Of a stretch of DNA of 64,000 nt, positions 3,781 to 16,894 are shown piece by piece. Both the position numbers and the translations under genes were made by a program. Origin of the DNA: Candidatus Brocadia sp. (lineage in GTDB: Bacteria; Planctomycetota; Brocadiia; Brocadiales; Brocadiaceae). Each line of letters starts with the position of its first letter. Within the stretch, counting starts at the first letter, position 1. The notes beneath the pieces were generated by a model. That model did no database searches and was not told where the DNA came from. It saw nothing but the letters and a program-made list of their open reading frames with translations. The stretch is taken from assembly GCA_021646415.1 (NCBI GenBank), contig SOEU01000006.1:1-64000 (forward strand), read 5' to 3'.

Positions 3781-3918
3781 AACAGGGATATACAAGATGA
3801 ACTGGATATTTTTTTAATATCTTTTTATCCTGCATATTCTGTTTATCCCTTTAAAAAAATAAACTGTCTTTATCCTGTCTATCCTGTCTATCCTGTCTAT
3901 CCTGTCAATCCCTGTTTA
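3781..3918. repeat. Mini-repeat family A cluster between cas1 and cas2
   Basis: The gap is filled by variants of a 9-base unit. TATCCTGTC occurs four times head to tail at 3871-3906, then AATCCCTGT; inverted or diverged copies (AACAGGGATATACAAGATG) lie at 3781-3800. The same family recurs at 4917-5041, 5446-5530, 7617-7688, 14847-14875 and inside cas6 at 15904-15937. Confidence 0.85.
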
Positions 3919-3921
3919 AAG

Positions 3922-4914
3922 TCACCACCATATCTTAAACCCTTCGTACTCCTGCTCGCCGATCAGGTGCTTCACCAATTTGTAACATTCTAATCGAATA
4001 AGATACCGGTAAGAAACCTGTCTTTCAAGTTTTTTATGGGTAATAATGGTCTTTAGCCTATCGTCATATTCCTGGGTAACAGTCTTTCTGCCCTTTTCGT
4101 TGAGGTAACAGAGGTTTACCTCCGTCATGAAATCATTTTCAGTGATCTGCTGGCGATTGAGCAGGGTAAATATGGTCCTGTCACTGAAGATGGGCTTAAA
4201 TATCTCTGCCATGTCCAGGCTCAGGGAAAACCGCCGTTCCCCTGGCTCATGGAGATACGAGATAAGCGGGTTTAGCTGTGTATGGTATATCTCGCCAAGG
4301 CAGGTTGTATAGACCATAGAATTGAGATAGGAAATCAGGGCATTGACCATATTGTCTGGCGGCTGCTTGACCCTGCGTTCAAATTCTATCTCCTGGTCGA
4401 TAATGGCGGGCCATGCCTTGTAATAGGTATTCCGGATATTCCCTTCGAGCCCCATCAACTCCTCTACGGCATCAATTTTTCCTATCTGTGCCCTGAATCC
4501 TTCGATAGTATTGATAAACTCGTCCAACCCTTTGCCTCTGTTGCTGTAATATCTCAGATTCTTCAGGATGTTGAAACTGGCCGCATCGACAAACGCCCTT
4601 GCCAGTGCAATCCTCTTCTGGCGGTTCGTATAGTGGTTTACCTGTTTCACGAGGAGCTGCCCTGAGTTTAAGTATTCTCTTGGATAATAAGTGCCTGAAT
4701 AATAACCATAGTAATTGAAGACATGAACAGGTATGCCCTTCTGTGCCAGGTAATTAAAGAGTTTGGTATTGAAATCGATCTCCCCGAAGGCATACAGGGC
4801 CTCGGTGTTCTCAATAGGTATAATGGACCTGGTGCCATCCTCCTTTTCCAGGAAGATGGTGTTTTCCTGCCTTTTCAGGCGGCCGTTTTTAAAGATGTAA
4901 TAATTCTGTTTCAT
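3922..4914 (-). CDS. cas1: CRISPR-associated integrase Cas1
   Basis: About 330 residues starting at MKQNYYIFKNGRLKR. An in-frame ATG 24 codons upstream would translate mini-repeat DNA, so I prefer the start at 4914. The Cas1 active site is visible: E in MGLEGNIRNTYYKAW, H in YHTQLNPLISYLHEPG, and D in SLDMAEIFKP. Family knowledge: Cas1 cuts and joins the leader-repeat junction to insert new spacers, with Cas2 and Cas4. The N-terminal beta domain and C-terminal helical domain are both complete. The sequence looks like the Cas1 of type I-B systems. Mini-repeats flank the gene on both sides. Confidence 0.96.
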   Translation of the reverse strand: MKQNYYIFKNGRLKRQENTIFLEKEDGTRSIIPIENTEALYAFGEIDFNTKLFNYLAQKGIPVHVFNYYGYYSGTYYPREYLNSGQLLVKQVNHYTNRQKRIALARAFVDAASFNILKNLRYYSNRGKGLDEFINTIEGFRAQIGKIDAVEELMGLEGNIRNTYYKAWPAIIDQEIEFERRVKQPPDNMVNALISYLNSMVYTTCLGEIYHTQLNPLISYLHEPGERRFSLSLDMAEIFKPIFSDRTIFTLLNRQQITENDFMTEVNLCYLNEKGRKTVTQEYDDRLKTIITHKKLERQVSYRYLIRLECYKLVKHLIGEQEYEGFKIWW

Positions 4915-4916
4915 AG

Positions 4917-5041
4917 GAATAAACAGGGATATACAGGATAAACAGGATTCTTCTGCCTCATGAACAGGGATACACAGGATGGACAAGATATGTATCTTTT
5001 TTTATAATTACCTTTTTTATCCTGTCCATCACTGTTTATTC
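4917..5041. repeat. Mini-repeat family A cluster between the GxxExxY gene and cas1
   Basis: AACAGGGATATACAGGATAA followed by AACAGGAT, then GAACAGGGATACACAGGATG and, in the opposite orientation, TTATCCTGTCCATCACTG at 5015-5032. With the copies at 5446-5530 they bracket the GxxExxY gene. Confidence 0.8.
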
Positions 5042-5044
5042 TCT

Positions 5045-5413
5045 CTATTTATGCAATCGCCTGTATTCGAGTTTGGGATTCCCAAAATTAATCAACAGAC
5101 CAACTTCTACCCCCGTTGCCTTAAGATAATTGATCACTTGTGCCTTATGCTCTGGCGCTAATTTCGTAACTGCTTTCAGTTCTAAAATAACCGTATTCTC
5201 AACCAATATATCAGCAAAATACTCTCCTACTTCCACCCCACGAAATTCAACATTAAGAGGAAATTGAGATTTTGTATTCAATCCCTTATCTTTTAAAGCA
5301 ATAAGCAACGCCTTCTCATATACAGATTCTAAGAACCCAGCGCCAAGTTCATTACTCACTTCAAAACATGCCTCAAGTATCTTTGCTGTTAATTCCTCAT
5401 GAATCATGGCCAT
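5045..5413 (-). CDS. GxxExxY family protein (putative nuclease-like fold)
   Basis: 122 residues. The family motif is seen as GAGFLESVYEKAL near residues 24-36. A later FADILVENTVILELKAV (D...ExK) resembles a PD-(D/E)XK nuclease core; that resemblance is an inference. It starts at the first ATG because GGAGG lies 7 bases upstream. The family is widespread in environmental bacteria and has no settled function. It sits between cas4 and cas1, collinear with them, but is not a standard cas gene, and family A mini-repeats lie on both sides. I regard it as a passenger gene. Confidence 0.85.
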   Translation of the reverse strand: MAMIHEELTAKILEACFEVSNELGAGFLESVYEKALLIALKDKGLNTKSQFPLNVEFRGVEVGEYFADILVENTVILELKAVTKLAPEHKAQVINYLKATGVEVGLLINFGNPKLEYRRLHK

Positions 5414-5445
5414 TATTACACCTCCTTAATTGTAATCATTTCCAT

Positions 5446-5530
5446 ATCCCGTTCATCCTGTCCATCCCTGTCAATTTTTCAGAGAATCTTTCCATGACTT
5501 TATCCTGTTTATCCTGTGAATCCCTGTTTT
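5446..5530. repeat. Mini-repeat family A cluster between cas4 and the GxxExxY gene
   Basis: Two units: CGTTCATCCTGTCCATCCCTG near 5450-5470 (first base excluded from the unit) and TTATCCTGTTTATCCTGTGA at 5500-5519 with TCCCTGT after it. All share the 9-base ATCCTGTNN period. Confidence 0.8.
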
Positions 5531-5533
5531 AAA

Positions 5534-6052
5534 TTAAACCCAGCAAATATCCCCATAACTGCACTTTTTGCACATCTTCATCCTTTGTATAGGGGGAGGC
5601 AATTCAGCTTCCACAATTCCTTTGATATCGTTTAATATTGCCTGAACCTTCTCATCATCTCCCGGTTCTAAAAACACGTCCAGGGTCTTTCTGAGCTTTG
5701 GGTAATTAATTTTACCCGTAATTCCTTCTACGCCTTTCTGTTTCAGATACCAGAGGTAATACTTCAGTTGCCAGATATGTGGTTCTTCAACCTTGTCTGA
5801 CTTCTTTACCTCGTGGATGACCCTGTCCTTCCCGATGAAGTCTATCTTAATCGTGCCGTCAATTTCGATCTCCTTCTTTTCCCGTTCATAGGACGTCTCA
5901 TGGATCAGTTTGCCGAGGTAAACTGCATCGCTCGTCTGCTCCATCTCAATATTTTTGGTAAAATACCAGAGCTTCTTTTTACAGAGGAAGTAGTAGTTTA
6001 TCTGGGTGCCGGTGAAGCGAATGCTATTTAGAGCACTATTCATATTCTGCAT
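5534..6052 (-). CDS. cas4: CRISPR-associated exonuclease Cas4
   Basis: 172 residues, typical of Cas4. The RecB-type nuclease core is visible as IDFIGKDRVIHEVKKSDK (D...ExK) followed by QLKYYLWYL (the Q-h-x-x-Y motif IV). Four cysteines that would bind a 4Fe-4S cluster are one in FLCKKKLW near the N-terminus and three in MCKKCSYGDIC at the C-terminus. Cas4 trims prespacers and checks the PAM before integration by Cas1-Cas2. It is separated from cas1 by the GxxExxY passenger gene and repeats. MQNMN could also start at the second Met. Confidence 0.93.
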   Translation of the reverse strand: MQNMNSALNSIRFTGTQINYYFLCKKKLWYFTKNIEMEQTSDAVYLGKLIHETSYEREKKEIEIDGTIKIDFIGKDRVIHEVKKSDKVEEPHIWQLKYYLWYLKQKGVEGITGKINYPKLRKTLDVFLEPGDDEKVQAILNDIKGIVEAELPPPIQRMKMCKKCSYGDICWV

Positions 6053-6108
6053 CCGCTACGAATTTTCACAAACTCCCTCGAATTACCTTCGAAGAGGATG
6101 GGAAAAAG

Positions 6109-6248
6109 CAAGAATCCAGAAGTCAGAAGACAGAATAAAAACATTTTTTTCCCTTTTTGAAGATAGAAGGAAAAGTCTCGAAAACCCAATCTACATAAGT
6201 TATACTTTATAGCCGTTTTAAACTGCTCAAACCGTTTAATCAGTTCCA
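6109..6248. repeat. Mini-repeats of two families upstream of cas4
   Basis: At 6109-6136 a short repetitive AGAATCCAGAAGTCAGAAGA-type unit (family E). At 6212-6248 GCCGTTTTAAACTGCTCAAA followed by CCGTTTAATCAG (family B), like the units around 13.7 and 14.25 kb. A 69-codon open frame across this stretch mostly translates the repeats and is not called. Confidence 0.65.
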
Positions 6249-6257
6249 TGAGTGGAT

Positions 6258-7556
6258 TTAAGCTATCTTCTCAATCTGCTTTTTGATACTTCTTGCTTCT
6301 GCAGCAAGATGATAAAGATGTTCCGGGGAGAATCTTTCTACGGCTTCAGCAATCCGTTCCAGGCATTCCATGGCGAACAGATAAACACCTTTCCTCGGCG
6401 CTTCGTGTCCGACGTTTTCAACCCATACTCCACACGAGGATATTCGTACCTGTGCCTTGAGGGCAAGAATTATTACATAATGCTCCAGAGGCGAACGCAT
6501 CTCAGTTTCTTCGCTTTTGCTTTTTTTATCCCGACGGAGATTGTCCTGTTTCAGACTTTCAAAAAGGTTAAGCACAAAAGGATTAAGCAGAAGGTATACC
6601 GGATCATCTTCAAAATCCTGACGGAATAATTCCGAATCGTCAAAGGATGATTTTTGGGTAATTTTATTCCAATCGCTAAGTTCTGGCAGGGAACTTGCCC
6701 AGGGTTCAGGTGGTTCTTCTTCCTCTTCCTCGTAATGGAGGTCTATAGCCCTGACTTCATAATCATCATCGTCCTCGTCTTTTATATCCGGAATCTCTGA
6801 AAGGTCTAAGAACCCTTCCGGATATTCCGCGCTAAAGGCTGCATCCCTGTTTCTCATCAGTTTATACGTGATTAACTGTCTTTCCATCATCTTATCCCTT
6901 TGTGCGCTTTCTTCCATCATCCGCTTCATACCTTTTTCAAGGCTTGCCACAGAGAGTCCTTCGGCATCAACCATGGCGATGAGGGGTTCTTCAAGTCGGG
7001 CTTGTTCCCTGTAATAATCCAACCAGCATTCAGGCGACCACGATGTATTGTCTTCCGGTTCCCTGGGTCTTATTCGTCTGTTTTCCCGGAATCCTTCAAA
7101 CATATCAAGAATAATCTGAAAGTCCGGCGCAATTCTCGTTATGTCGCGAAGGAAACGGATGCCGGATTGGGATTTTTTACCGGAAAGCTTGTCTACCTTT
7201 GACAGGGCATCCCTGAGTAAATTGAGCGCGCCGTCGACATCATCCTGGAGATAATAGACCAATACACTCTTTATGCCTTCTTTTATTGCATGCAGACCTT
7301 CTATGATTGATGCAACATTTTCACCTTCTTTATTCTTAGATATATCTTCCTCAAGGCGGTTGATTATACAGGGTATGAGGGACATCAATCGGTCAAGACC
7401 GGGGAGGCGGCCGATTCCTTCCCGCGGGTCGTCCGGGTCATGGGAAATATTTTCATCTGACTTGCGGAAAAAATCATCCAGTTCGGCAAAAACATCCCTG
7501 GTTTTGGATATCTCCGCGAGAACCTGTTTGTGACCTGCTGTGTTTTGTCTCTTCAT
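6258..7556 (-). CDS. Unrecognised acidic helical protein inside the cas operon
   Basis: 432 residues from MKRQNTAGHKQVLAE; a TTG nine codons upstream is an alternative. I do not recognise the family. The N-terminal half is predicted helical by eye (LDRLMSLIPCIINRLEEDI, IKEGIKSVLVYYLQDDVDGA). The middle has a strongly acidic linker (DEDDDDYEV ... YEEEEEEPPEP, about residues 265-290), and the C-terminal part is again helical and ends AEARSIKKQIEKIA. There is no signal peptide, membrane segment, nuclease or nucleotide-binding motif. It lies between cas5 and cas4 on the same strand. It could be an ancillary CRISPR protein, a small-subunit-like effector partner or a passenger gene; nothing in the sequence decides between these. 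Confidence 0.75.
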   Translation of the reverse strand: MKRQNTAGHKQVLAEISKTRDVFAELDDFFRKSDENISHDPDDPREGIGRLPGLDRLMSLIPCIINRLEEDISKNKEGENVASIIEGLHAIKEGIKSVLVYYLQDDVDGALNLLRDALSKVDKLSGKKSQSGIRFLRDITRIAPDFQIILDMFEGFRENRRIRPREPEDNTSWSPECWLDYYREQARLEEPLIAMVDAEGLSVASLEKGMKRMMEESAQRDKMMERQLITYKLMRNRDAAFSAEYPEGFLDLSEIPDIKDEDDDDYEVRAIDLHYEEEEEEPPEPWASSLPELSDWNKITQKSSFDDSELFRQDFEDDPVYLLLNPFVLNLFESLKQDNLRRDKKSKSEETEMRSPLEHYVIILALKAQVRISSCGVWVENVGHEAPRKGVYLFAMECLERIAEAVERFSPEHLYHLAAEARSIKKQIEKIA

Positions 7557-7956
7557 TATATCAAAGTCAATAAACTCGTACAACTTTTTAAAGAAGTACA
7601 GTCTTTCCTATTTTTAACAGGGATTAAGGGGATAAATAGGATGTTTTCAGGATATTTTCTTATCCTGTTCATCCTGTCCATCCCTGATAATGAAAATCGT
7701 CTTCATCGCTGTCCACCTTGCCCTTTTCCCTTCTATTAAGAAGGAATTTCGAACCTCCCCTCTATCAAGAGGGGTTAGGGGTGTGTTCTTCATGCCTGCC
7801 TTGAACCATGCTATTTATCATACAGGTTCAATTATAATTTTACTCACGTTTCTGAAATCCTTATCGATGGCATATACCAATTACCCGTATAAAACCAAGG
7901 ATTCATGTTACAAACCTGATAACTCCATCAAATGATTAAATTGTCGATTTATCCTT
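7557..7956. other. Gap with repeats and degraded sequence
   Basis: No credible gene. It holds family A mini-repeats at 7617-7688 (AACAGGGATTAAGGGGATAA and TATCCTGTTCATCCTGTCC), a family D unit at 7752-7788 (CTCCCCTCTATCAAGAGGGG), and a possible 20-codon minus-strand remnant near 7815-7880 reading AIDKDFRNVSKIIIEP, too short to identify. Confidence 0.6.
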
Positions 7957-8724
7957 TTAATCTTTCCGATAAATTTTACCTCTACTTGTTCCTTCAAATC
8001 TTCCCTTGATAAGATATGGAACCTGTTCTGTATTATCTCCGCCAGCCATCCACCAATGCGGCAAAGTCGGTTCAATAGCTGCATTCTTAAACCGTGAAAG
8101 AGTCACAGCCGTGCAACCTGATTGTATATTGGTTTTCCACTGTTCCGGCGGCATGTAAACCACATATTTCGGTTCAGAACAGTTTTCTACGCTACCGACC
8201 AGTGAACACATGGAATCATGTGTTCCCAAATGCCCCAAATTTGTAAGAGCCAATGTTGCCGCTTCACAATGTTCTTCAGGGATTCCCCCATAAATGGTAG
8301 TATGCCCTTCAACCAAGCCGTATTCACGAGTTCCCTGGTTAATGTTGGTCAGACCAATTCTGGCATTTGGCTTAAATTTTTCTTTGCTCGTTTTCATTGC
8401 TCCCGTCTCATATCGCCTTAATTGATGGAACGCCCTAAAAAATATGATTCCATCAGGCGCATCCACCACAACACTGCAATGGTGAACAGCACTGAGAAAA
8501 GACTTTGCCTCGCTTTCTTTTCCTAATGAAAATAGAGTTGAAGCAATCCCAAGCAAGACGGTTGTTGGAGAAACAACCGGCGAACCCATTGCCGATGCAG
8601 AGGCAGAGCGTGGGTCACGATAGGCATAGGTATGGAACTTATATGCTGCCTTTAACCAGACTAACGGGGGGATTGGCGGAGGTATGACTGATTTTGAATC
8701 CGCTTTAATCTTTTTTTTCGGCAT
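7957..8724 (-). CDS. cas5: CRISPR-associated protein Cas5
   Basis: 255 residues. The N-terminal part fits the Cas5 RAMP fold: LVWLKAAYKFHTYAYRDPRS followed by SPVVSPTTVLLGIASTLFSLG, the conserved serine/proline-rich turn and helix after the first strand. Cas5 caps the 5' handle of the crRNA and joins the large subunit to the Cas7 backbone in type I Cascade. It begins 5 bases after the cas7 stop. The first 20 residues (KKKIKADSKSVIPPPIPP) are an unusual basic/proline-rich lead. Assignment rests on the fold-like N-terminus and the position after cas7; sequence similarity in this family is low. Confidence 0.75.
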   Translation of the reverse strand: MPKKKIKADSKSVIPPPIPPLVWLKAAYKFHTYAYRDPRSASASAMGSPVVSPTTVLLGIASTLFSLGKESEAKSFLSAVHHCSVVVDAPDGIIFFRAFHQLRRYETGAMKTSKEKFKPNARIGLTNINQGTREYGLVEGHTTIYGGIPEEHCEAATLALTNLGHLGTHDSMCSLVGSVENCSEPKYVVYMPPEQWKTNIQSGCTAVTLSRFKNAAIEPTLPHWWMAGGDNTEQVPYLIKGRFEGTSRGKIYRKD

Positions 8725-8729
8725 GGTTA

Positions 8730-9761
8730 CTAACCCTCTAATTTGGCTTTTATCTGTGATATTTTTTCAAGAAGTTCTTTGACATTGTTGAATTTCCATA
8801 CCCATGTATCAGTATTATTATTAAGGTCTTCCATTGTCTTTGCATAACTTGAATCTGCCTGCACCGGTGTATCTTTTTTAGTTAAATCCACTTTTATTGG
8901 AGAAGCAAACGGCGCTGTTCTGGCTGATGTGAGGAGAATTGCGCCTTCTGTTAGAAATACATGGGGTGCCCATCCTGCCGTCTTTGCTCCAGTCGGTGAA
9001 GCAATGAAATTTATTATCGCCTCAATAAGGGCTACTTGGCGTTTTTTTTGCTCCTCAGGGGTAATAGCCAACCGATTTTGTCCATTCTGCAAATACCAGT
9101 AATCATCAGTTCCAATACGGTGCAGATCAGCCCGAATGACGCCACCATAGGTGTTGGAGCGCATAGACTGAGCATATCTGCTGTTCATTGAAGCGGTGTC
9201 ACGAAATGCCGAATGCTGTGTAACTGTCAAATCTTGAGGATTTTCGCTAATTAACCATGCCACATCAAAACAAGATTCTCTTTTTACAGGATCAACACCT
9301 CCGATCGTGGCGCAACACCGGTTGATGTAATCGCTTTCTGCAATATAATTGCCTGCATTGGCGCCACCTTGCGCATCTTTCCATGCGGCAAGAAATCCAC
9401 CAGCGTCAAGGACTGCACATTTTTCAATTGCCGCTCGAACGCTTGGAAAAAGATTGCTTGCGTCGAGCGTGACAGCACTGGCGTCATTATTTCTTGCAGC
9501 CGCACGAATTCCAATTGGTCCTCTATCTGGATGCAAACCTTCGCTTAATGGCAGCATTGCAATTGTTTGGCTCCGGCAAACATCAACAAAATTTTCCAAA
9601 ATATGCCGCCTGACAATTTCTCCACTTATTCCATCATAAGTTACACTGCCAACATCAATACGGCGTGGCTGCATTAAATTACTTCCGTCAGACCCCTCAT
9701 TATTTAAGGCATGAAAACCAAGACCCAAACGATAGGCAAATGAAATGCTCCACAGTTTCAT
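8730..9761 (-). CDS. cas7: CRISPR-associated protein Cas7 (DevR/Cst2-like)
   Basis: 343 residues. The N-terminus MKLWSISFAYRLGLGFHALNNEG followed by VTYDGISGEIVRRHILENFVDV matches the first RAMP strand and the conserved SG-x-hhRR helix of Cas7/DevR proteins. Cas7 forms the helical backbone of Cascade along the crRNA spacer. The start codon overlaps the cas8 stop (ATGA), showing translational coupling. The gene is complete and its length is normal for Cas7 of type I-A/I-B-related systems. Confidence 0.8.
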   Translation of the reverse strand: MKLWSISFAYRLGLGFHALNNEGSDGSNLMQPRRIDVGSVTYDGISGEIVRRHILENFVDVCRSQTIAMLPLSEGLHPDRGPIGIRAAARNNDASAVTLDASNLFPSVRAAIEKCAVLDAGGFLAAWKDAQGGANAGNYIAESDYINRCCATIGGVDPVKRESCFDVAWLISENPQDLTVTQHSAFRDTASMNSRYAQSMRSNTYGGVIRADLHRIGTDDYWYLQNGQNRLAITPEEQKKRQVALIEAIINFIASPTGAKTAGWAPHVFLTEGAILLTSARTAPFASPIKVDLTKKDTPVQADSSYAKTMEDLNNNTDTWVWKFNNVKELLEKISQIKAKLEG

Positions 9762-11203
9762 TGTAATTCCTCCTCTGTATTTGAATTATTAACCTCAGAA
9801 ATATCTCTATCAGGCACATCTACCGTCTCTTTTGCTTTATAAGTACTTTCCTGAATCAGATACATCCTGAACAGATCACGGAAAGTCTCAAAGTCACGTC
9901 CCTCTCCAATGCTTGCCAATAACGCCGAAGGATTGTAGTCTTCGTTTCTGTGAACTGTTCCGATTTGTCCGTGCTCACGATGCCCCTGTTCAAGAAGGAT
10001 TAAAGCCCTTTCCCGGAAGGCTCTTGCGGAAGGTGCAGAACGAAGCATAACGACTTCGTCATACCACGCCTTCCCCTTTTCACCTTCACCAGCTTTGCTC
10101 TGTCGGGCAAAATAGATGGCTGATGCCACGGCTTTTGCAAACTTGCGTACTGCCTCATGATCCCCTTTCCAATCCCCATAGCTCATGCTAAACACCTCCT
10201 TTACATATACCTGTTTTATAAAAATGTGTGAATATCCTTTAGCCTTCATTCGTTCCTGTGATGTAATCATTGACGATAGATGCTTCCCTACCGGTTGCAT
10301 GAGCCAATAAGCCATTGCAAGGGTATCAGAAGCAAATTCTGTAGCCTTATAATCTCTTCCCTTCTTGCTCCACCCCTTGCTCACTAAATTTCTGAAGATG
10401 CGATATACATGAGATGTGAAATCAGCAGTCCCAATTTTATCTATGGCTGTTGATTTTATTGAAATCAGGCCAGAATAGTTGTCGCTTCGCTGACTTCCCA
10501 AGTTAGTGTTAAAAACGACCGCAGATAACTTTTTTTCGTAGCCCTCCGAAAAAAGCGAGGATTTAAGGGACAACAAAGCTAATGCCTGCGAGCAGATGAC
10601 ATTTGGCAATCCAAGCCAGGCACGCAAAGGGCTTACAACTTTGGATAGATCAATCCGTCCTTCAAACACGGGTAAAAATAAAATATTTCCTAAACTTTCC
10701 GTTCTCTTCCTCCCTGCATAGGCGAGCAATCCTTGCCCTAATGGAATGTCAGCTTTGCACTCCGCTTTGGATGTTTGACCCGTTTGCAAGGTTTCGTAAC
10801 TGCAAGCTGATATACCCCTGATTCCAGTCTGTAATGCTGCATCGTATTTCTTTTCTCCTTCTACGGAATAACTCTCGGAAATGATTTGTCCCTTGAATAA
10901 ATATGGTTGCAGGTGGTTACTGCAATACTCATTTGCTTCCGGTCGTCTCTTGCCCCACACTTGTTTAAAGGCAGCCTCATCACGACCGTCCAAATAGGCT
11001 CGTCTCCTTCCAGTTATTTCCCACTCATTCCCCTTATCACAGATTTCTACATCTTCCCGTAGTCCAATATATAAATCAATCGCTCCATAAAGCTGCAACA
11101 CATCAAAAAATAGCAAACCGGTTTTTGGGACAAATAATGTAACCGCTTCTCCTCCAAAGTCCTTCAGCGTTGACGACGCCTTTGACCAGTCAAAAGTCAT
11201 CAT
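9758..11203 (-). CDS. cas8: Putative Cas8 large subunit of Cascade
   Basis: 481 residues from the ATG that overlaps the cas3 stop (ATGA); GGAGG lies 8 bases upstream. An ATG five codons earlier is possible. I recognise no catalytic motif, which is normal for Cas8, a fast-diverging family that recognises the PAM. The call depends mainly on position, between cas3 and cas7 in a coupled operon. The size and the place in the order cas3-cas8-cas7-cas5 are reminiscent of the Myxococcus dev-type (Csx13/DevT) locus. The acidic C-terminal tail (SEVNNSNTEEELQ) is probably disordered. A small subunit could be encoded within its C-terminal helical part. Confidence 0.68.
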   Translation of the reverse strand: MMTFDWSKASSTLKDFGGEAVTLFVPKTGLLFFDVLQLYGAIDLYIGLREDVEICDKGNEWEITGRRRAYLDGRDEAAFKQVWGKRRPEANEYCSNHLQPYLFKGQIISESYSVEGEKKYDAALQTGIRGISACSYETLQTGQTSKAECKADIPLGQGLLAYAGRKRTESLGNILFLPVFEGRIDLSKVVSPLRAWLGLPNVICSQALALLSLKSSLFSEGYEKKLSAVVFNTNLGSQRSDNYSGLISIKSTAIDKIGTADFTSHVYRIFRNLVSKGWSKKGRDYKATEFASDTLAMAYWLMQPVGKHLSSMITSQERMKAKGYSHIFIKQVYVKEVFSMSYGDWKGDHEAVRKFAKAVASAIYFARQSKAGEGEKGKAWYDEVVMLRSAPSARAFRERALILLEQGHREHGQIGTVHRNEDYNPSALLASIGEGRDFETFRDLFRMYLIQESTYKAKETVDVPDRDISEVNNSNTEEELQ

Positions 11204-13608
11204 TGTTCTGTCCTCCACATCTCCAATTCCTCCCCTGCTGCGTCCTCCCTGTCTGCCATTAGAATCGCACGACCAACAAGGGCATAGATGGGGAAGAGGT
11301 CTACATTCGGCAATAACAACGGCACATCTTCCTTTGAAGGCGTTTTCTTGGCTGCTTCAAGGATTTCACCGGATTGATTTAATATTGCTTCAGGGGCGGA
11401 AATGTTTTTTAAGACTGCTTTTATAAAGTCATCTGTTAGCGGATGAGGTTCAAAATGATGCTTTACCAGAGACGGATTCAAAAAGCTTGAATGGTGGCGG
11501 GCTGCTGACAAAGCAACGGAACGGATTAGATATTCGGATGAACCAAGAGAGCCGATCAATAAAACAGAGGCTTTTATCATGGCGTTATATCCAGGCGGTG
11601 TATGCGGAACACCTATAGAATCTCCTGTTTTTGAAGTGCGACCAATAAATTCCGAAATGGGTTCACCCTGAATTTTTGCAGCTTTCTCCTGCCATCTCTT
11701 GTCCGCCTTTCCCAAGTCGTGAAAGCCGGCAGCAAGCATACTCAACATTGCAACGAGATCCATAAGGCTGTCAGCATCTTTATCAGGCTCAAGAAATTGA
11801 AGAATCTTTTTAAGTGTTTTACGATACATGCCATCTTCCGTAAAACGCTGATGAACTTTTTCCATAACACCTGATGTGTGGCCCCAAAGGGTTTGCAGCT
11901 TTCTGCCTTCTTTCTTAAAAGATTCTTCTGATCTTCCTTTCTTTTCCAGCCAGTTGCTGTTCAGAATTGCGTCTTGTATTTCAATTCCATCTTTGGCAAA
12001 GCACAGTCCTTTAGTTCTGTGCAGATAGGCTACAGATGATGGAACAATCAAGATATCACTGGGTCTGACAGAATCTGTCGGTGTGATAATCAATTCCCCA
12101 TCTTCGTTATACTGGACTACAGCGCACTTGCCCGGCGCTTTCTTTATTAACCCCCATGCGCTGCCAAGAGAAATAGAAGATGTCTCAGGGTATTGACCTT
12201 GCATAAGCATGTTTTGCAGGTCTCGCTGCGCCAAGTCGTCTATGTGAACCGAATCGCCCTCTTCGACAGCAACTTCCACAGATAAAATCTCCCTGAATAC
12301 GCTTGCAATCTCGCCGGGTTTCTGCTCTTGTGCGGCACGGTCGAAAAGGTTTAAGGCAAAGGTTGTTTCATTCAGCGATTTTTCTACTGATTCAACAGCT
12401 TTTTTAGAATCGCCGCCCCAAGCTTGATTTATCCATGATTGCTCAGTTGTCCAAGTAAGTAGTTGATCTGCGGGAAGAGATTCTAAAGCGGCCATGACTA
12501 ACGCTAATGGCTTATAAGGCAAGGATAATTTTTCTATTTCCGTTTTAGGCGCCTTTAAAACAATGAATTGTCCCTTGGCTTCACCGTTCCTGAACCATCT
12601 GCCACATCGTCCAGCCCTTTGCACCAGTGTATCCACAGGCGCGGGATCAGAGATGACTAATGGAGCAGAAATATCAAGACCTGCTTCCGCAACCTGATTT
12701 GTCAGTAAAATCCAATCACCATTCAGCGATTCTTTCCCAAAACAAGCATAGGCCTTCTGCTCTGCATCAGCCCTCCATGAACGAGGCATACGGTTGTGGA
12801 GAACGATGATTTTGTCAGCGCTTACATTGGCCTTTATCAATCGGTCATAGGTTTCTTGTAGTCGTTCAACAGTATTAGCAAAGTATATCCGCTTGTCCTG
12901 AGTATTTTTCAATCTATCATCAAGTTGCTGCCAGTCAAGCTTCTTATCCTCACCCTTTCCCTTGTTTTTCAGTTCAAGCATTGAGATAGTCACTTTTCTG
13001 TTTTTTTCTCGGAGTTGCAGCCCTTTATCCTCTGCAACCTCTTCTTCACCCACGATAACCAATTCCAAGCCCAATCGGCCGGAAATGATCTCTGCTACTT
13101 TTTTTGGCAGGGTGGCTGTCAGCACAACGGTTTGCAAACCAAGTTTTTGTCTAAAATCTATAATTGCCAGCAAAATTGACAATGCCTTTTCAGAGATACT
13201 CCAAGCCAAATGAGTTTCATCTAGGATCAGACGCGACATCAGCAATGCCCCTGCTATGGCATGCCCTGCCTTGAGAGGCAGACTGAGCGGCAAGCCGGGG
13301 ACAGCACAGACAACCTGGTCATAGGTTGTTATAACAACTTCTTCACCGAACAACTTGCTTTCTTGAACATCCCCATGATGGATAACGGCTGGTATTTGCT
13401 TACCATTTCGGTTCAGGGTGGAAATCTCTTTTTGAATTCCATTGCCAAGCGACCTTAACGGGACGGCATAAACCATTTTACAAAACCTATCCTGAATATC
13501 TCCCGTGACGGCAAGAGTTTTCCCTAAGCCAGTTGGAGCAACAAGAAGCAGCGACTTACCATCTTTCAATTTGTTAATTACATGCTTCTGAAATTGCGTA
13601 AATTCCAT
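11200..13608 (-). CDS. cas3: CRISPR-associated helicase-nuclease Cas3, helicase-HD order
   Basis: 802 residues. The helicase comes first: APTGLGKT (Walker A, 24-31), LDETH (DExH box), LTATLPKK (motif III) and QRAGRCGRW (motif VI). The HD nuclease is at the C-terminus: GHTSGVMEKVH, AAGFHDLGKADKRW (H630, D631), VPHTPPGYNAM and ARHHSSF supply the metal-binding His/Asp set. Most Cas3 proteins carry the HD domain at the N-terminus; the reversed order is known from type I-G and a few other lineages. Cas3 is recruited by Cascade and degrades the unwound target strand. The stop overlaps the cas8 start. Confidence 0.93.
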   Translation of the reverse strand: MEFTQFQKHVINKLKDGKSLLLVAPTGLGKTLAVTGDIQDRFCKMVYAVPLRSLGNGIQKEISTLNRNGKQIPAVIHHGDVQESKLFGEEVVITTYDQVVCAVPGLPLSLPLKAGHAIAGALLMSRLILDETHLAWSISEKALSILLAIIDFRQKLGLQTVVLTATLPKKVAEIISGRLGLELVIVGEEEVAEDKGLQLREKNRKVTISMLELKNKGKGEDKKLDWQQLDDRLKNTQDKRIYFANTVERLQETYDRLIKANVSADKIIVLHNRMPRSWRADAEQKAYACFGKESLNGDWILLTNQVAEAGLDISAPLVISDPAPVDTLVQRAGRCGRWFRNGEAKGQFIVLKAPKTEIEKLSLPYKPLALVMAALESLPADQLLTWTTEQSWINQAWGGDSKKAVESVEKSLNETTFALNLFDRAAQEQKPGEIASVFREILSVEVAVEEGDSVHIDDLAQRDLQNMLMQGQYPETSSISLGSAWGLIKKAPGKCAVVQYNEDGELIITPTDSVRPSDILIVPSSVAYLHRTKGLCFAKDGIEIQDAILNSNWLEKKGRSEESFKKEGRKLQTLWGHTSGVMEKVHQRFTEDGMYRKTLKKILQFLEPDKDADSLMDLVAMLSMLAAGFHDLGKADKRWQEKAAKIQGEPISEFIGRTSKTGDSIGVPHTPPGYNAMIKASVLLIGSLGSSEYLIRSVALSAARHHSSFLNPSLVKHHFEPHPLTDDFIKAVLKNISAPEAILNQSGEILEAAKKTPSKEDVPLLLPNVDLFPIYALVGRAILMADREDAAGEELEMWRTEQ

Positions 13609-13686
13609 ATCTTATTCCCCCTCGCATCCACCACCCACGGATTCCCGTCCGATTGAATAATGGCATGGTCAATTCCTTATAAAAGT

Positions 13687-13770
13687 GTTCAAGCAGTTTA
13701 AACCGTACAAGCTGTTCAAGCCGAATAAACTGTTTAAACCGTTTAAACGGCTTAAGCGGATTAATCGGTT
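13687..13770. repeat. Mini-repeat family B, left of the S23-type gene
   Basis: Tandem variants of a roughly 12-base unit: TTCAAGCAGTTTAAACCGTA, CAAGCTGTTCAAGCCG, AACTGTTTAAACCG, TTTAAACGGCTTAAGCGG. The stop codon of the neighbouring four-helix-bundle gene (13761-13763) lies inside this block. Confidence 0.8.
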
Positions 13771-14216
13771 TTATCGTTCTTTACATTTATTTTCCTCATC
13801 ATTTCATCTAACGTTTCTTTCATACTCTTTCGCTTTGGCATCTTGTACTTTGAGCCTTTGTAACCGCTACCTTTTAGATGCTCCATAAAGTTGTTAATCA
13901 TTATTGACAGTTTTTTAAAGGCATCGAGTAATCGCTTACATTCATTCTCATCAACATAGCCTTGATCCAAAGCAACGTATATCTGACTGCGGACTTCTCC
14001 GCTTGACCCTTTTGCTATTGACAAAAACTGGATAAGTTCCTGATTGCCTCCTCTTTCGTATCCTTCGGCTATGTTTGACATGACAGAGACCGAGGCACGT
14101 CTTATTTGGCTTCTAAGATCAAAGTCTTTTGAAAAAGAACCATTACTTGTAATTTTGTAAATTTTGTTTGTTAATTCTCTTGCTGCCTTCCACACTTCTA
14201 AATCTTCGAAGTACAT
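13761..14216 (-). CDS. Four-helix-bundle protein, S23 / rRNA-intervening-sequence family
   Basis: 151 residues from [15 protein letters not shown], the classic start of this family; AAAGGAG stands just upstream. An in-frame start 19 codons earlier would translate repeat DNA. Diagnostic segments are [47 protein letters not shown] and a helical C-terminus. Relatives occur in 23S rRNA intervening sequences and as free-standing genes; the crystal structures are pentameric four-helix bundles, and the function is unknown. It sits between cas3 and the nucleotidyltransferase pair, bracketed by family B mini-repeats that overlap its stop codon. The C-terminal tail is basic ([12 protein letters not shown]). 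Confidence 0.9.
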
Positions 14217-14236
14217 GGTTATCTCCTTTATAAAAA

Positions 14237-14296
14237 AACTGTTCAGGCAGATTAAGCCGTTTAAACAGTTCAAGCTGATTAAGCGGTTTAAGCCGT
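14237..14296. repeat. Mini-repeat family B, right of the S23-type gene
   Basis: AAACTGTTCAGGCAGATTAA, GCCGTTTAAACAGTTCAAGC, TGATTAAGCGGTTTAAGCCG: the same unit as at 13687-13770, on the upstream side of the gene. Confidence 0.8.
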
Positions 14297-14307
14297 GAAT
14301 AAAATGG

Positions 14308-14530
14308 TCAAAGCCTATACAACGCTAATTTTTTCATAACCGTTTTATAGACTTTGCTTGGGCTAAGTTTTGTTGTATCAATTCTAATATCTGCGGGTAT
14401 CTTCCTGAATTCTTTGAATAACTTTCTTACGAACTCGTATTTATCCCGGTAATTTTTGCTAAACAACCACTCGCCGCCTTGCTCGTCTTTCTTTTTCTTC
14501 TGAATCCTTTCATAGACTCTTTTACCGTAT
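14308..14530 (-). pseudogene. Remnant of a C-terminal coding region, unidentified
   Basis: An open minus-strand frame of about 73 codons without a start codon, closed upstream by a TAA at 14531-14533. It reads RVYERIQKKKKDEQG, then GGEWLFSKNYRDKYEFVRKL, then IDTTKLSPSKVYKTVMKK before the stop at 14308. The amino acid pattern is protein-like, so this looks like the 3' part of a decayed gene. I do not recognise the family. Confidence 0.5.
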
Positions 14531-14616
14531 TACCTTTTGTGTAAATATTCCATATACAAAAACATACTTTGAATTACATAAAAGGGTATCATATTTCAAC
14601 GACCTTTTCGCTATTG

Positions 14617-14784
14617 CTAAAAGATCCAAAATAATCCAAATTCATTATCCTTGGTCGCCTGGAGACATAGGCCAAGCGGGCCAGACATGAAGTCATGCCA
14701 TTTGCCCGTGTGTCGAAAGTAGGCGAGGCTGTAGTCGTCTCCTCCAATTCTTCCAAATATGCCTGAAGGCCATCCCCTTTTAGT
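14617..14784 (-). pseudogene. Remnant of a small conserved protein, unidentified
   Basis: An open minus-strand frame of 56 codons without a start, closed upstream by TAA at 14785-14787. It reads GWPSGIFGRIGGDDYSLAYF then RHTGKWHDFMSGPLGLCLQA and stops at 14617. The GGDDYSLAYFRHTGKW segment looks like real, constrained coding sequence. Another frame break must lie upstream. I cannot name the family. Confidence 0.5.
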
Positions 14785-14846
14785 TTACAGTTATCTTTAG
14801 CCCACCCCCCTTTTATCCTTGCTTCAACGCTGTCTCTGCAGAATTA

Positions 14847-14875
14847 TCCTGTTTATCCTGTGCATCCCTGTTCCC
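14847..14875. repeat. Mini-repeat family A unit
   Basis: TTATCCTGTTTATCCTGTGC followed by ATCCCTGTT, downstream of the nucleotidyltransferase gene. Confidence 0.75.
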
Positions 14876-14922
14876 AATTACGTCGTTTAAAAAATTCACT
14901 CGTATTTGTAACACTAGCTACC

Positions 14923-15486
14923 TTATTCCTCCAACCGCCTTAATACTGCATCCCAGATTTCACGAGTGCCCAATCTGTCTGCCCATTGGGTGACGTAGTC
15001 TCTGTCGATGATGTCACCTGATATTTTGAGGATTCCGGTAATATCTCTCAGGTGTTTTTCAGAAGCACCTTCTTTATACAATTCCATCTTCTTTATGATA
15101 ACGTCTTCCGGGGATGAGAAGTTTGCCTGGTATGTTTCAGCTGGATAGATGCGATGTATCCGTTTAAACCGGCACTCGTCAAATGGTGTATTTTTCTTTA
15201 TGATTACATCTATCTTAAAACCTGATACCGGATGTATTATGTTGAACTGTCCTTTACAACGAATTGCATTCCTTATCATTTCTTCACTAATATAGAATTC
15301 CTGAATAGGAAAGGCATTGAGCAAGCCGGGAATATGTTCTTCTTTTATATCTGCTATAATGTCAATGTCATTCGTTAATCGTGACTCTCCATATGCCATA
15401 GCAGCGACAGACCCGGTTACCAGATAAGGAATCCGAAGTCGTTCAAGGATTTCAACAATCTTTTGTAGCAGTTCAAACGGCCCCAT
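14923..15486 (-). CDS. Nucleotidyltransferase (AbiEii / MNT-like)
   Basis: 187 residues from MGPFELLQKIVEILER; AGGAGG stands about 9 bases upstream of the ATG at 15486. The nucleotidyltransferase core is visible: VTGSVAAMAYGESRLTNDID (GS...DxD, the metal site), with a third acidic position in FKIDVIIKK. The C-terminal half is helical. Families of this type include toxin-like enzymes of toxin-antitoxin or abortive-infection modules and housekeeping-like orphans. The start overlaps the stop of a small upstream gene by 14 bases, giving a two-gene module between cas6 and cas3. Substrate and role are unknown. Confidence 0.8.
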   Translation of the reverse strand: MGPFELLQKIVEILERLRIPYLVTGSVAAMAYGESRLTNDIDIIADIKEEHIPGLLNAFPIQEFYISEEMIRNAIRCKGQFNIIHPVSGFKIDVIIKKNTPFDECRFKRIHRIYPAETYQANFSSPEDVIIKKMELYKEGASEKHLRDITGILKISGDIIDRDYVTQWADRLGTREIWDAVLRRLEE

Positions 15487-15706
15487 GCGTAAGCCTCCTG
15501 GCCACTTCCTGGGCAAGTCTTTTGGCATCCCATTCAGGATGAGTTTTTTTCAGGTAAGTCATGAGCATATTACGCGCTGATATCCACATGTTAAAACCAA
15601 TGCGGATCCTTTCTGCCGGTGTTTTGTGGCATAGCACTTCCGCCATAGCATCGTCCACAACTTCAATCTGCCCTTTATCCAGTCTCATAATATCTAACCC
15701 GAACAT
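15473..15706 (-). CDS. Small partner protein of the nucleotidyltransferase
   Basis: 77 residues from MFGLDIMRLDKGQ; an ATG eight codons upstream is also possible. The C-terminal half, AERIRIGFNMWISARNMLMT followed by THPEWDAKRLAQEVARRL, matches a small helical family often found directly upstream of such nucleotidyltransferases (typical pattern HP-W-hhhEVARRhhHG). It overlaps the downstream gene by 14 bases, so the two are translationally coupled. I infer an antitoxin-like or adaptor role from the gene pairing only. Confidence 0.75.
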   Translation of the reverse strand: MFGLDIMRLDKGQIEVVDDAMAEVLCHKTPAERIRIGFNMWISARNMLMTYLKKTHPEWDAKRLAQEVARRLTHGAV

Positions 15707-15862
15707 GTCGGAAGAGATTATCAATACCATGAACTTTTATCGTCTTATAATAAATCAACTTTCCGGCATTTAAAAAAAATACGAACTTCTATGAATTGGC
15801 TTGGAAGTCTTGTATTATTTGACAACAATTCTGACTCCCATTCATTATCATTCCTACCCCGC

Positions 15863-16894
15863 CTATCTCTGTTTCAAAGATGCAAGATATTGCGTCTCTA
15901 CAAATTTATCCTGCCTATCCTGTCCATCCCTGTTCATTTCCACATATCCGCATCCCATGCTGTTGTTTTGCCCAAAGCCGCACTCAAGGCCGATCCTGAT
16001 CAATTCTTCCGCCCCCGTTACGGTGAACGGCTGCAGTGTTCCTTTTATGTTAACGGGCTTTTTGCTGCCGTCTGATCCCTTTTTAAATATAGTAAACTGC
16101 TTCACAGACTTTCCATTGATTGTGTGAAAATCAAATTTCAGAGGTTCGCCACCAAAAAGCTTACCATGAAGGGTCTCGTATTTGTGCAAAAGATTCTGAT
16201 TGAGGAATTCTGCATACCCTTCGTCCCCTGGGAATAAGAAGATGTCCTGCCGGCCGGGCGGCATGGGCTTTTTGATGAAGATGGGAGATTCAAGCGGTTT
16301 CAGTAAGATTTCGGATTTTGGATTTTGGATTTCGGAATTAAAAGCAACAGGATCCGGAAGGGTTTCTATTCTATAAATTGTTATTTTTTGTCGTCCCAGG
16401 GTTATTTCATTCCCTTCCCGGAATATGCCATCTATGAGGTGTTGAATGAATTTATCAACCGGCGATGCGATCTGAAAGGAGAAGGTGAAGGGATGGGTTT
16501 GAGAAGCTTTGAATGAAAAGCCAGTAGATATGGTTAAACTGTTTGGTGGTTGCTTAACGCCCAGAGTGATACCAAGGGATTTTGACCACCCCCTATCCCC
16601 CTCCTTCGCAAGGCGGGGAGATTCTTCCATGTTATATTGGTTAGCTACATTATTTGAATGGTTTGTGTTATTTAAACGGATTATTTTGATCGGGCCGTCG
16701 AATATTATGCCGGAAAAGACAAAGAGCTTGAACCGCTTGTCTTTTTTGTAAATAAAACCCTGCTGGTGAAGCCATTGGGCATAGTCGGGATTTGACCTGG
16801 ACAGGAAACCATAGATGATGGCCTGGATCTGGTGCTGGTAGTTGAAGACGATGACACCGGATCTATCTGCCGAGAGGGTTATTCTTATTCTCAT
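15863..16894 (-). CDS. cas6: CRISPR crRNA-processing endonuclease Cas6, with in-frame repeat insertions
   Basis: 343 residues. Cas6 features: MRIRITLSADRSGVIVFNYQ (first RAMP strand), YAQWLHQQGF, RFKLFVFSG, ASPVDKFIQHLIDGI and the glycine-rich loop GLECGFGQNNSMGCGYVEM near the C-terminus. Cas6 cuts the array transcript in each repeat to leave the 8-base handle. It is longer than most Cas6 proteins because three stretches are translated mini-repeats: residues around 90-102 (EESPRLAKEGDRGWSK, family D), around 185-196 (NSEIQNPKSEILL, family C) and the C-terminal tail after GYVEM (NRDGQDRQDKF, family A). The frame is kept in all three. It is the first cas gene on the strand, upstream of the passenger genes. 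Confidence 0.88.
   Translation of the reverse strand: MRIRITLSADRSGVIVFNYQHQIQAIIYGFLSRSNPDYAQWLHQQGFIYKKDKRFKLFVFSGIIFDGPIKIIRLNNTNHSNNVANQYNMEESPRLAKEGDRGWSKSLGITLGVKQPPNSLTISTGFSFKASQTHPFTFSFQIASPVDKFIQHLIDGIFREGNEITLGRQKITIYRIETLPDPVAFNSEIQNPKSEILLKPLESPIFIKKPMPPGRQDIFLFPGDEGYAEFLNQNLLHKYETLHGKLFGGEPLKFDFHTINGKSVKQFTIFKKGSDGSKKPVNIKGTLQPFTVTGAEELIRIGLECGFGQNNSMGCGYVEMNRDGQDRQDKFVETQYLASLKQR
15904..15937. repeat. Mini-repeat family A inside the cas6 3' end
   Basis: TTATCCTGCCTATCCTGTCC then ATCCCTGTTC; on the minus strand it encodes MNRDGQDRQDK just after the Cas6 glycine-rich loop. Confidence 0.85.
16306..16340. repeat. Mini-repeat family C inside cas6
   Basis: GATTTCGGATTTTGGATTTT then GGATTTCGGA; it encodes SEIQNPKSEI on the minus strand. 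A second copy lies upstream of cas6 at 16967-16996. Confidence 0.8.
16587..16630. repeat. Mini-repeat family D inside cas6
   Basis: CACCCCCTATCCCCCTCCTT then CGCAAGGCGGGGAG; it encodes SPRLAKEGDRGW on the minus strand. A related unit lies at 7752-7788. Confidence 0.75.

Follow-up and report, generated by a model that had tools for sequence, protein, structure and literature searches.

The window, meaning the whole analysed stretch of 64,000 nucleotides from a Candidatus Brocadia genome, carries a CRISPR-cas locus with a cas6 gene (Table 1). The identity of the encoded protein was supported by a match to TIGR01877 (3.7e-24, 86.3 bits against a cut-off of 58.65), by matches to both PF01881 (4.9e-20) and PF21350, and by Foldseek, which related the predicted fold to the solved Cas6 structure 5yi6 (E 1e-14) and also to 3ufc. 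The open reading frame was intact, without frame breaks, and dN/dS in the core was 0.06-0.14 between the window genome (G000) and its relatives, indicating purifying selection. The residues Y28, H43 and K53 and the glycine-rich loop GFGQNNSMGCGY were kept across the Cas6 copies; from general knowledge of Cas6 enzymes, we take these to be candidate catalytic residues. The repeat RNA GTTTCAATTCCTTATAGGTTCAATGAAAG is the putative substrate for processing by Cas6.

Three segments of this protein had been read, in an initial annotation made from the sequence alone, as translations of the genomic repeats D, C and A. This was confirmed by matches to the three families and by two controls. Among 500 codon-shuffled versions of cas6 there was one D match and none to the other families, and among 5000 random windows of 1032 nt taken from the same contig outside cas6, a single family was present in 152 and two families in none. 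The cas6 gene held four families, compared to a maximum of one in the 5000 random windows. The fourth is the F palindrome, which directly adjoins the A repeat and was overlooked in the initial annotation, where the two were not told apart. Only one arm and the core of D are present in cas6, and this copy is read in the rare phase; it may have decayed or been rearranged.

The core motifs on either side of the inserts had been described as intact, and the conserved flanking motifs in the unbroken frame bore this out. In an AlphaFold2 model of moderate quality (mean pLDDT 68, pTM 0.67, 13 sequences), the block means of pLDDT were 25-34 at residues 81-120 in site 1 and 31-42 at the tail, and both regions are predicted to be disordered. 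Site 2 sits between the strands at residues 169-179 and 194-200. A profile alignment to 5yi6, the closest solved Cas6, which is without inserts, showed gaps where the inserts lie. The inserts thus map to a loop modelled with low confidence, a linker and the C-terminal end, in line with the surface loops and C-terminus that had been anticipated.

Table 1. Features of cas6 and of the surrounding cas locus, in window coordinates.
Feature	Position	Strand	Evidence
cas6, CRISPR-associated endoribonuclease, 343 aa	15863-16894	minus	TIGR01877, PF01881, PF21350, fold match 5yi6
Hypervariable site 1 (residues 72-121), D element	16532-16681	minus	absent or different in orthologs; low pLDDT
D palindrome core CCCCGCCTTGCGAAGGAGGGG, read within SPRLAKEGDRGW	16598-16618	minus	exact palindrome match
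Hypervariable site 2 (residues 183-198), C array	16301-16348	minus	LNG repeats or short loop in orthologs
C heptamer array (AAATCCR)n, read as NSEIQNPKSEI	16307-16338	minus	C-family match
C-terminal tail (residues 320-343), A+F	15866-15937	minus	common to G005; elsewhere absent or different
A repeat GACAGGATAGGCAGGAT, 9-bp units, read as GQDRQDK	15908-15924	minus	A-family match
F palindrome AGAGACGCAATATCTTGCATCTTT, read as VETQYLASLK	15876-15899	minus	directly adjoins A
cas-locus stretch with A loci at 3872, 5446, 7662, 14846 and 15908 (5 of 9 in the genome)	3872-15925	minus	Poisson P 1.6e-10
LNG-type 9-bp array beside the four-helix-bundle gene	13682-13771		repeat search
Second LNG-type array, in inverse orientation to the other (pair I2)	14236-14297		repeat search

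Orthologous Cas6 proteins and reuse of the insertion sites

Matches to Cas6 were found in 18 genomes, the window's own and 17 related ones. When these were aligned, the core was collinear, and length varied at four places only, namely sites 1 and 2, a site 3 that follows residue 256, and the tail. The relatives had filled the same sites with other repeats, chiefly a 9-bp repeat termed LNG. At the DNA level, sites 1 and 2 of most relatives (including G002, G003, G020 and G024) contained TTAAACGGY arrays that are read as LNG. The frame of the 9-bp repeat varied by place, giving LNG at sites 1 and 2, LER/FKR-like peptides at site 3 and QTV in the tail. The sites were short in the Cas6 proteins of G022b, G026b and G013 and nearly missing in those of G039a/b (Candidatus Anammoxibacter), and the deepest relatives had short loops. 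Because the orthologs hold other repeats or short loops at these positions, the segments are insertions and the sites have been reused.

The initial annotation had proposed orthologs as the test of its reading, and these were without the same peptides, except for near relatives that share them by descent. One of these is another Brocadia, G001, whose cas6 resembles that of the window genome in having D at site 1 and C at site 2, both of them degenerate in G001; the D and C inserts are older than the split between the two. The A+F tail was common to G005, a different Brocadia. The idea of three independent insertions peculiar to this Cas6 could therefore not be upheld, since the sites are also filled in relatives, D and C are shared with G001, and A and F with G005, which makes the inserts older than the window genome. 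The recurrent filling of the same sites by unrelated repeats is the newer part of the result; REP elements inserted in frame were already known.

A Cas6 from Nitrospinae (L168, 1713-2518), identical at about half of its positions, carried LNG repeats at sites 1, 2 and 3, which suggests horizontal transfer of the gene together with its repeats.

Genomic distribution of the repeat families

The 3.81-Mb genome contained 39 exact D palindromes, 13 C matches and 11 A matches. The D consensus from 48 copies, AACCaCCCCTCTTTCCCCTCCTTCGCAAGGAGGGGATnAAGGGGaGGT, spans about 47 bp and forms an imperfect inverted repeat, and a second A/T-rich hairpin-like stretch often comes after it. Of 49 copies, 48 from stretches around pattern hits and the one in Cas6, which are not an unbiased sample, 17 lay within predicted genes, a strong depletion compared to a coding density of 0.84. 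The genes near the D copies were called with a simple hexamer model, and most of the matches were in proteins confirmed by Pfam. The D-bearing proteins included CbiD, peptidase U32, a UvrD-like protein, SelA, PriA, YfhO, TruD, a spermidine-synthase-like protein and a PDZ protein. A second Cas6 in the same genome, belonging to another family (PF10040; L079, 1546-2625), also carried an in-frame D insert.

The reading phase was the same in 15 of the 17 coding copies, which gave SPPSQGGD-like peptides (P 8e-5 at an open-frame rate of 0.41), and this bias persisted when each gene was counted once (11/13, P 0.0017). The two exceptions were the Cas6 copy and a copy at L073 that is perhaps non-coding, as the true start of a Cas1 gene probably lies downstream of it. 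In SelA, the D site was empty in G002, G008 and G009, occupied by D in five Brocadia genomes and filled with a different repeat in G013, and the CbiD site showed a similar pattern across the relatives, empty sites included. The SelA insert had an A-run at both ends, either a possible target duplication of the kind that accompanies MITEs or a part of the D element. Many intergenic D copies (at L062, L065, L066, L070, L084 and others) had a module resembling TAACGCAGCAAAGCCGCAACCAAA on their left side, which raises the possibility that D belongs to a larger composite element. In a survey of the phylum, D was found in 14 of 294 sampled genomes, most of them from the window's class, with a concentration in its order. 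A search of viral contigs with the D pattern returned nine stretches.

The resemblance to Rickettsia palindromic elements (RPEs) that the initial annotation had pointed out was borne out for D, a multi-copy element found in frame in unrelated conserved proteins, with empty sites in relatives and a favoured phase. It had further suggested a mobile repeat that prefers or survives in coding sequence. Because D is found in genes far less than the coding density predicts, its genic copies are survivors and do not mark a preference; the distribution reads as an element inserted everywhere and surviving in few places. Nor is there a single mobile repeat, since C, A and LNG are tandem arrays of 7- or 9-bp units and only D and F have the appearance of discrete palindromic elements. 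We also considered D as a REP mobilised by a RAYT transposase. This was rejected, as D occurred within about 1.5 kb at only one of 12 Y1_Tnp (RAYT) loci, which is no association. The D consensus was also searched for a GTAG or CGTC end tag, and none was found, placing D outside the GTAG/CGTC REP super-families.

The A and LNG repeats are clustered at the cas locus, which had gone unnoticed. Five of the nine A loci of the genome lay within 12 kb in the window, and in G005 seven of ten A matches lay within 13 kb at the cas locus. A repeats were seen at several gene junctions of the locus, at cas1, cas4, the four-helix-bundle gene and cas6. The four-helix-bundle gene, which belongs to the 23S rRNA intervening-sequence protein family, adjoins cas6 and is flanked by the inverted LNG arrays (13682-14297), an arrangement that was found again in most relatives. 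LNG arrays clustered at cas6 and this neighbouring gene in most members of the family, and in G002, 10 of 22 raw LNG matches fell within about 3 kb at cas6. Five 20-kb stretches farther along the window's contig contained no copies of the repeats. A general tie between LNG and four-helix-bundle genes (TIGR02436) was considered and discarded, because, among the four-helix-bundle loci located in this genome, only the one adjacent to cas6 has LNG arrays.

Further copies were seen outside the cas locus. In HypD (L067, 6505-6569), a C insert common to G000, G005 and G001 consists of two heptamer arrays in inverted orientation and could fold into a hairpin. In G015, a Mu-like prophage (L042, 7446-17463) had LNG arrays at many of its gene junctions, in-frame LNG in the portal and in another phage protein, and D-like PPLGKGG repeats in the portal. 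The strict LNG pattern had no matches among IMG/VR viral contigs.

Origin of the inserts and recombination of cas6

We consider it likely, with a probability of roughly 0.8, that several families of mini-repeats are involved, that their genic copies survive in frame at tolerant loops, linkers and ends, and that different lineages have filled the same sites in Cas6. The genome holds unrelated families, namely D (REP-like, about 47 bp), C (7-bp tandem), A and LNG (9-bp tandem) and F (a short palindrome), which arise in many places and have the majority of their copies between genes. Under this model, a copy within a gene would be retained only if its length is a multiple of three, if it is free of stop codons and if it lies at the end of the protein, in a linker between domains or in an exposed loop. 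Three internal sites of this kind and the C-terminus are present in Cas6 and are occupied by different repeats in different lineages, with the core kept under purifying selection. The inserts are presumably neutral or close to it. The 7- and 9-bp arrays may grow by replication slippage, D may move by a transposition-like process, and the repeats may aid, or ride on, recombination of cas6 segments.

Such recombination was supported by a comparison of cas6 segment by segment, which had not been part of the initial annotation. The third-position identities along the gene were 0.90/0.56/0.57 for G005-G024, 0.54/0.63/0.78 for G003-G005 and 0.82/0.55/0.50 for G000-G012. The tree of the N segment grouped G005 with G024 (support 100/99), and that of the C segment grouped G005 with G003 and G012 (85/93). 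For clades that were picked after seeing the data, a forced G003+G005 grouping in the N segment was rejected with a p-AU of 1e-9, and a forced G005+G024 grouping in the C segment with a p-AU of 0.02. Because the segment identities and the trees conflict, we conclude that recombination exchanged parts of cas6. The estimated breaks, roughly placed, cluster at residues 61-71 and 151-167, and the gene is a mosaic of recombined segments whose borders lie close to the repeat sites.

The sharp shifts in identity, the tree conflict and the position of the breaks near sites 1 and 2 are also what would be seen if the repeat sites were themselves recombination boundaries and the repeats mainly a by-product or tool of cas6 exchange between species, in place of insertions sorted afterwards by selection. 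We regard this as a tentative possibility, one that is compatible with survival of several repeat families at tolerant sites. However, the breakpoints are rough, uneven conservation along the gene may yield part of the pattern, and the in-frame inserts in SelA, HypD and CbiD are left unexplained. A more speculative version, to which we give little credence, is that mini-repeats at the cas genes of Brocadiaceae, as arrays both in the gaps separating these genes and within the loops of cas6, serve as exchange joints, with Cas6 segments swapped between species and the 9-bp units keeping the frame. If true, Cas6 would be a modular and rapidly reshuffled enzyme of CRISPR RNA processing.

The above-average repeat load at the cas locus and the D inserts in two Cas6 families of one genome could suggest that the inserts were selected for because they tune Cas6, for example in RNA binding or in evasion of anti-CRISPRs. 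We find this quite unlikely, as the inserted sequence is unconstrained among relatives and similar inserts are present in unrelated enzymes. It is even less probable that the repeats mark a decaying pseudogene. In G004 (L015, L043 8483-8635), the reading frame of cas6 is broken next to a long LNG expansion, which represents either real decay or an assembly error, but the window copy has no frame breaks, its core dN/dS is low, and Y28, H43, K53 and the glycine-rich loop are conserved. Finally, the intact frame and conserved flanking motifs would also fit segments that are part of the Cas6 fold and resemble repeats by coincidence, a reading refuted by orthologs of about 70% identity with other sequences or short loops at these positions, by solved Cas6 proteins that are without the segments and by the predicted disorder of site 1 and the tail, so that we give it next to no weight.

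Comparison with known repeat systems

Mini-repeats inserted in frame have precedents. Nearly half of the reviewed RPEs, which are about 150 bp long, lie inside open reading frames (PMC10969869). D resembles them as a palindromic repeat found in frame within unrelated conserved proteins. It differs in its length of about 47 bp, its occurrence in Brocadiales and its clear depletion from genes, and Cas6 differs in that it also contains non-palindromic tandem repeats of 7 and 9 bp. The intragenic GTAG/CGTC REPs are small palindromes that are mostly intergenic, with some in frame in genes including the UvrD/REP helicase, and flexible linkers or loops have been proposed as their role (PMC3733652). 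D is likewise mostly intergenic and in frame in repair genes such as the UvrD-like gene, but its consensus is without the GTAG/CGTC end tag and the link to a RAYT-type transposase was not found. The enterobacterial RU elements, also met within genes, are short mobile repeats of 103-168 bp that supply open reading frames to host proteins (PMC2759123); D is shorter and without a confirmed target duplication. In Geobacter metallireducens, heptanucleotide families such as GGACCGG and MTYCTGA occur as four or five tandem units (PMC2700814). As with C, one heptamer family is found both within and between genes, but the C consensus AAATCCR is unlike the listed heptamers.

For anammox bacteria, a Kuenenia genome paper counted 260 short tandem repeats, giving the number only (PMC5854607), and the open-licence literature that was searched held no description of the present families, which is weak evidence of absence. 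One practical consequence concerns annotation. Because the D insert in a CbiD query pulled in dozens of unrelated loci, we caution that repeat-derived segments in Brocadiaceae proteins can yield spurious matches between unrelated proteins.

Set against these systems, the finding is a real and well-supported instance of an RPE/REP-like phenomenon from a new lineage, to which Cas6 adds recurrent sites that hold unrelated repeats in a recombinant gene. In-frame insertion of REPs and RPEs has been best documented in Rickettsia and scattered other species. The anammox lineage provides a comparative series of about twenty genomes in which one protein can be seen with a site that is full, empty or occupied by something else, and this series permits direct tests of the neutrality of the inserts, of the steering of repeat survival by protein tolerance and of repeat-guided recombination in CRISPR loci.
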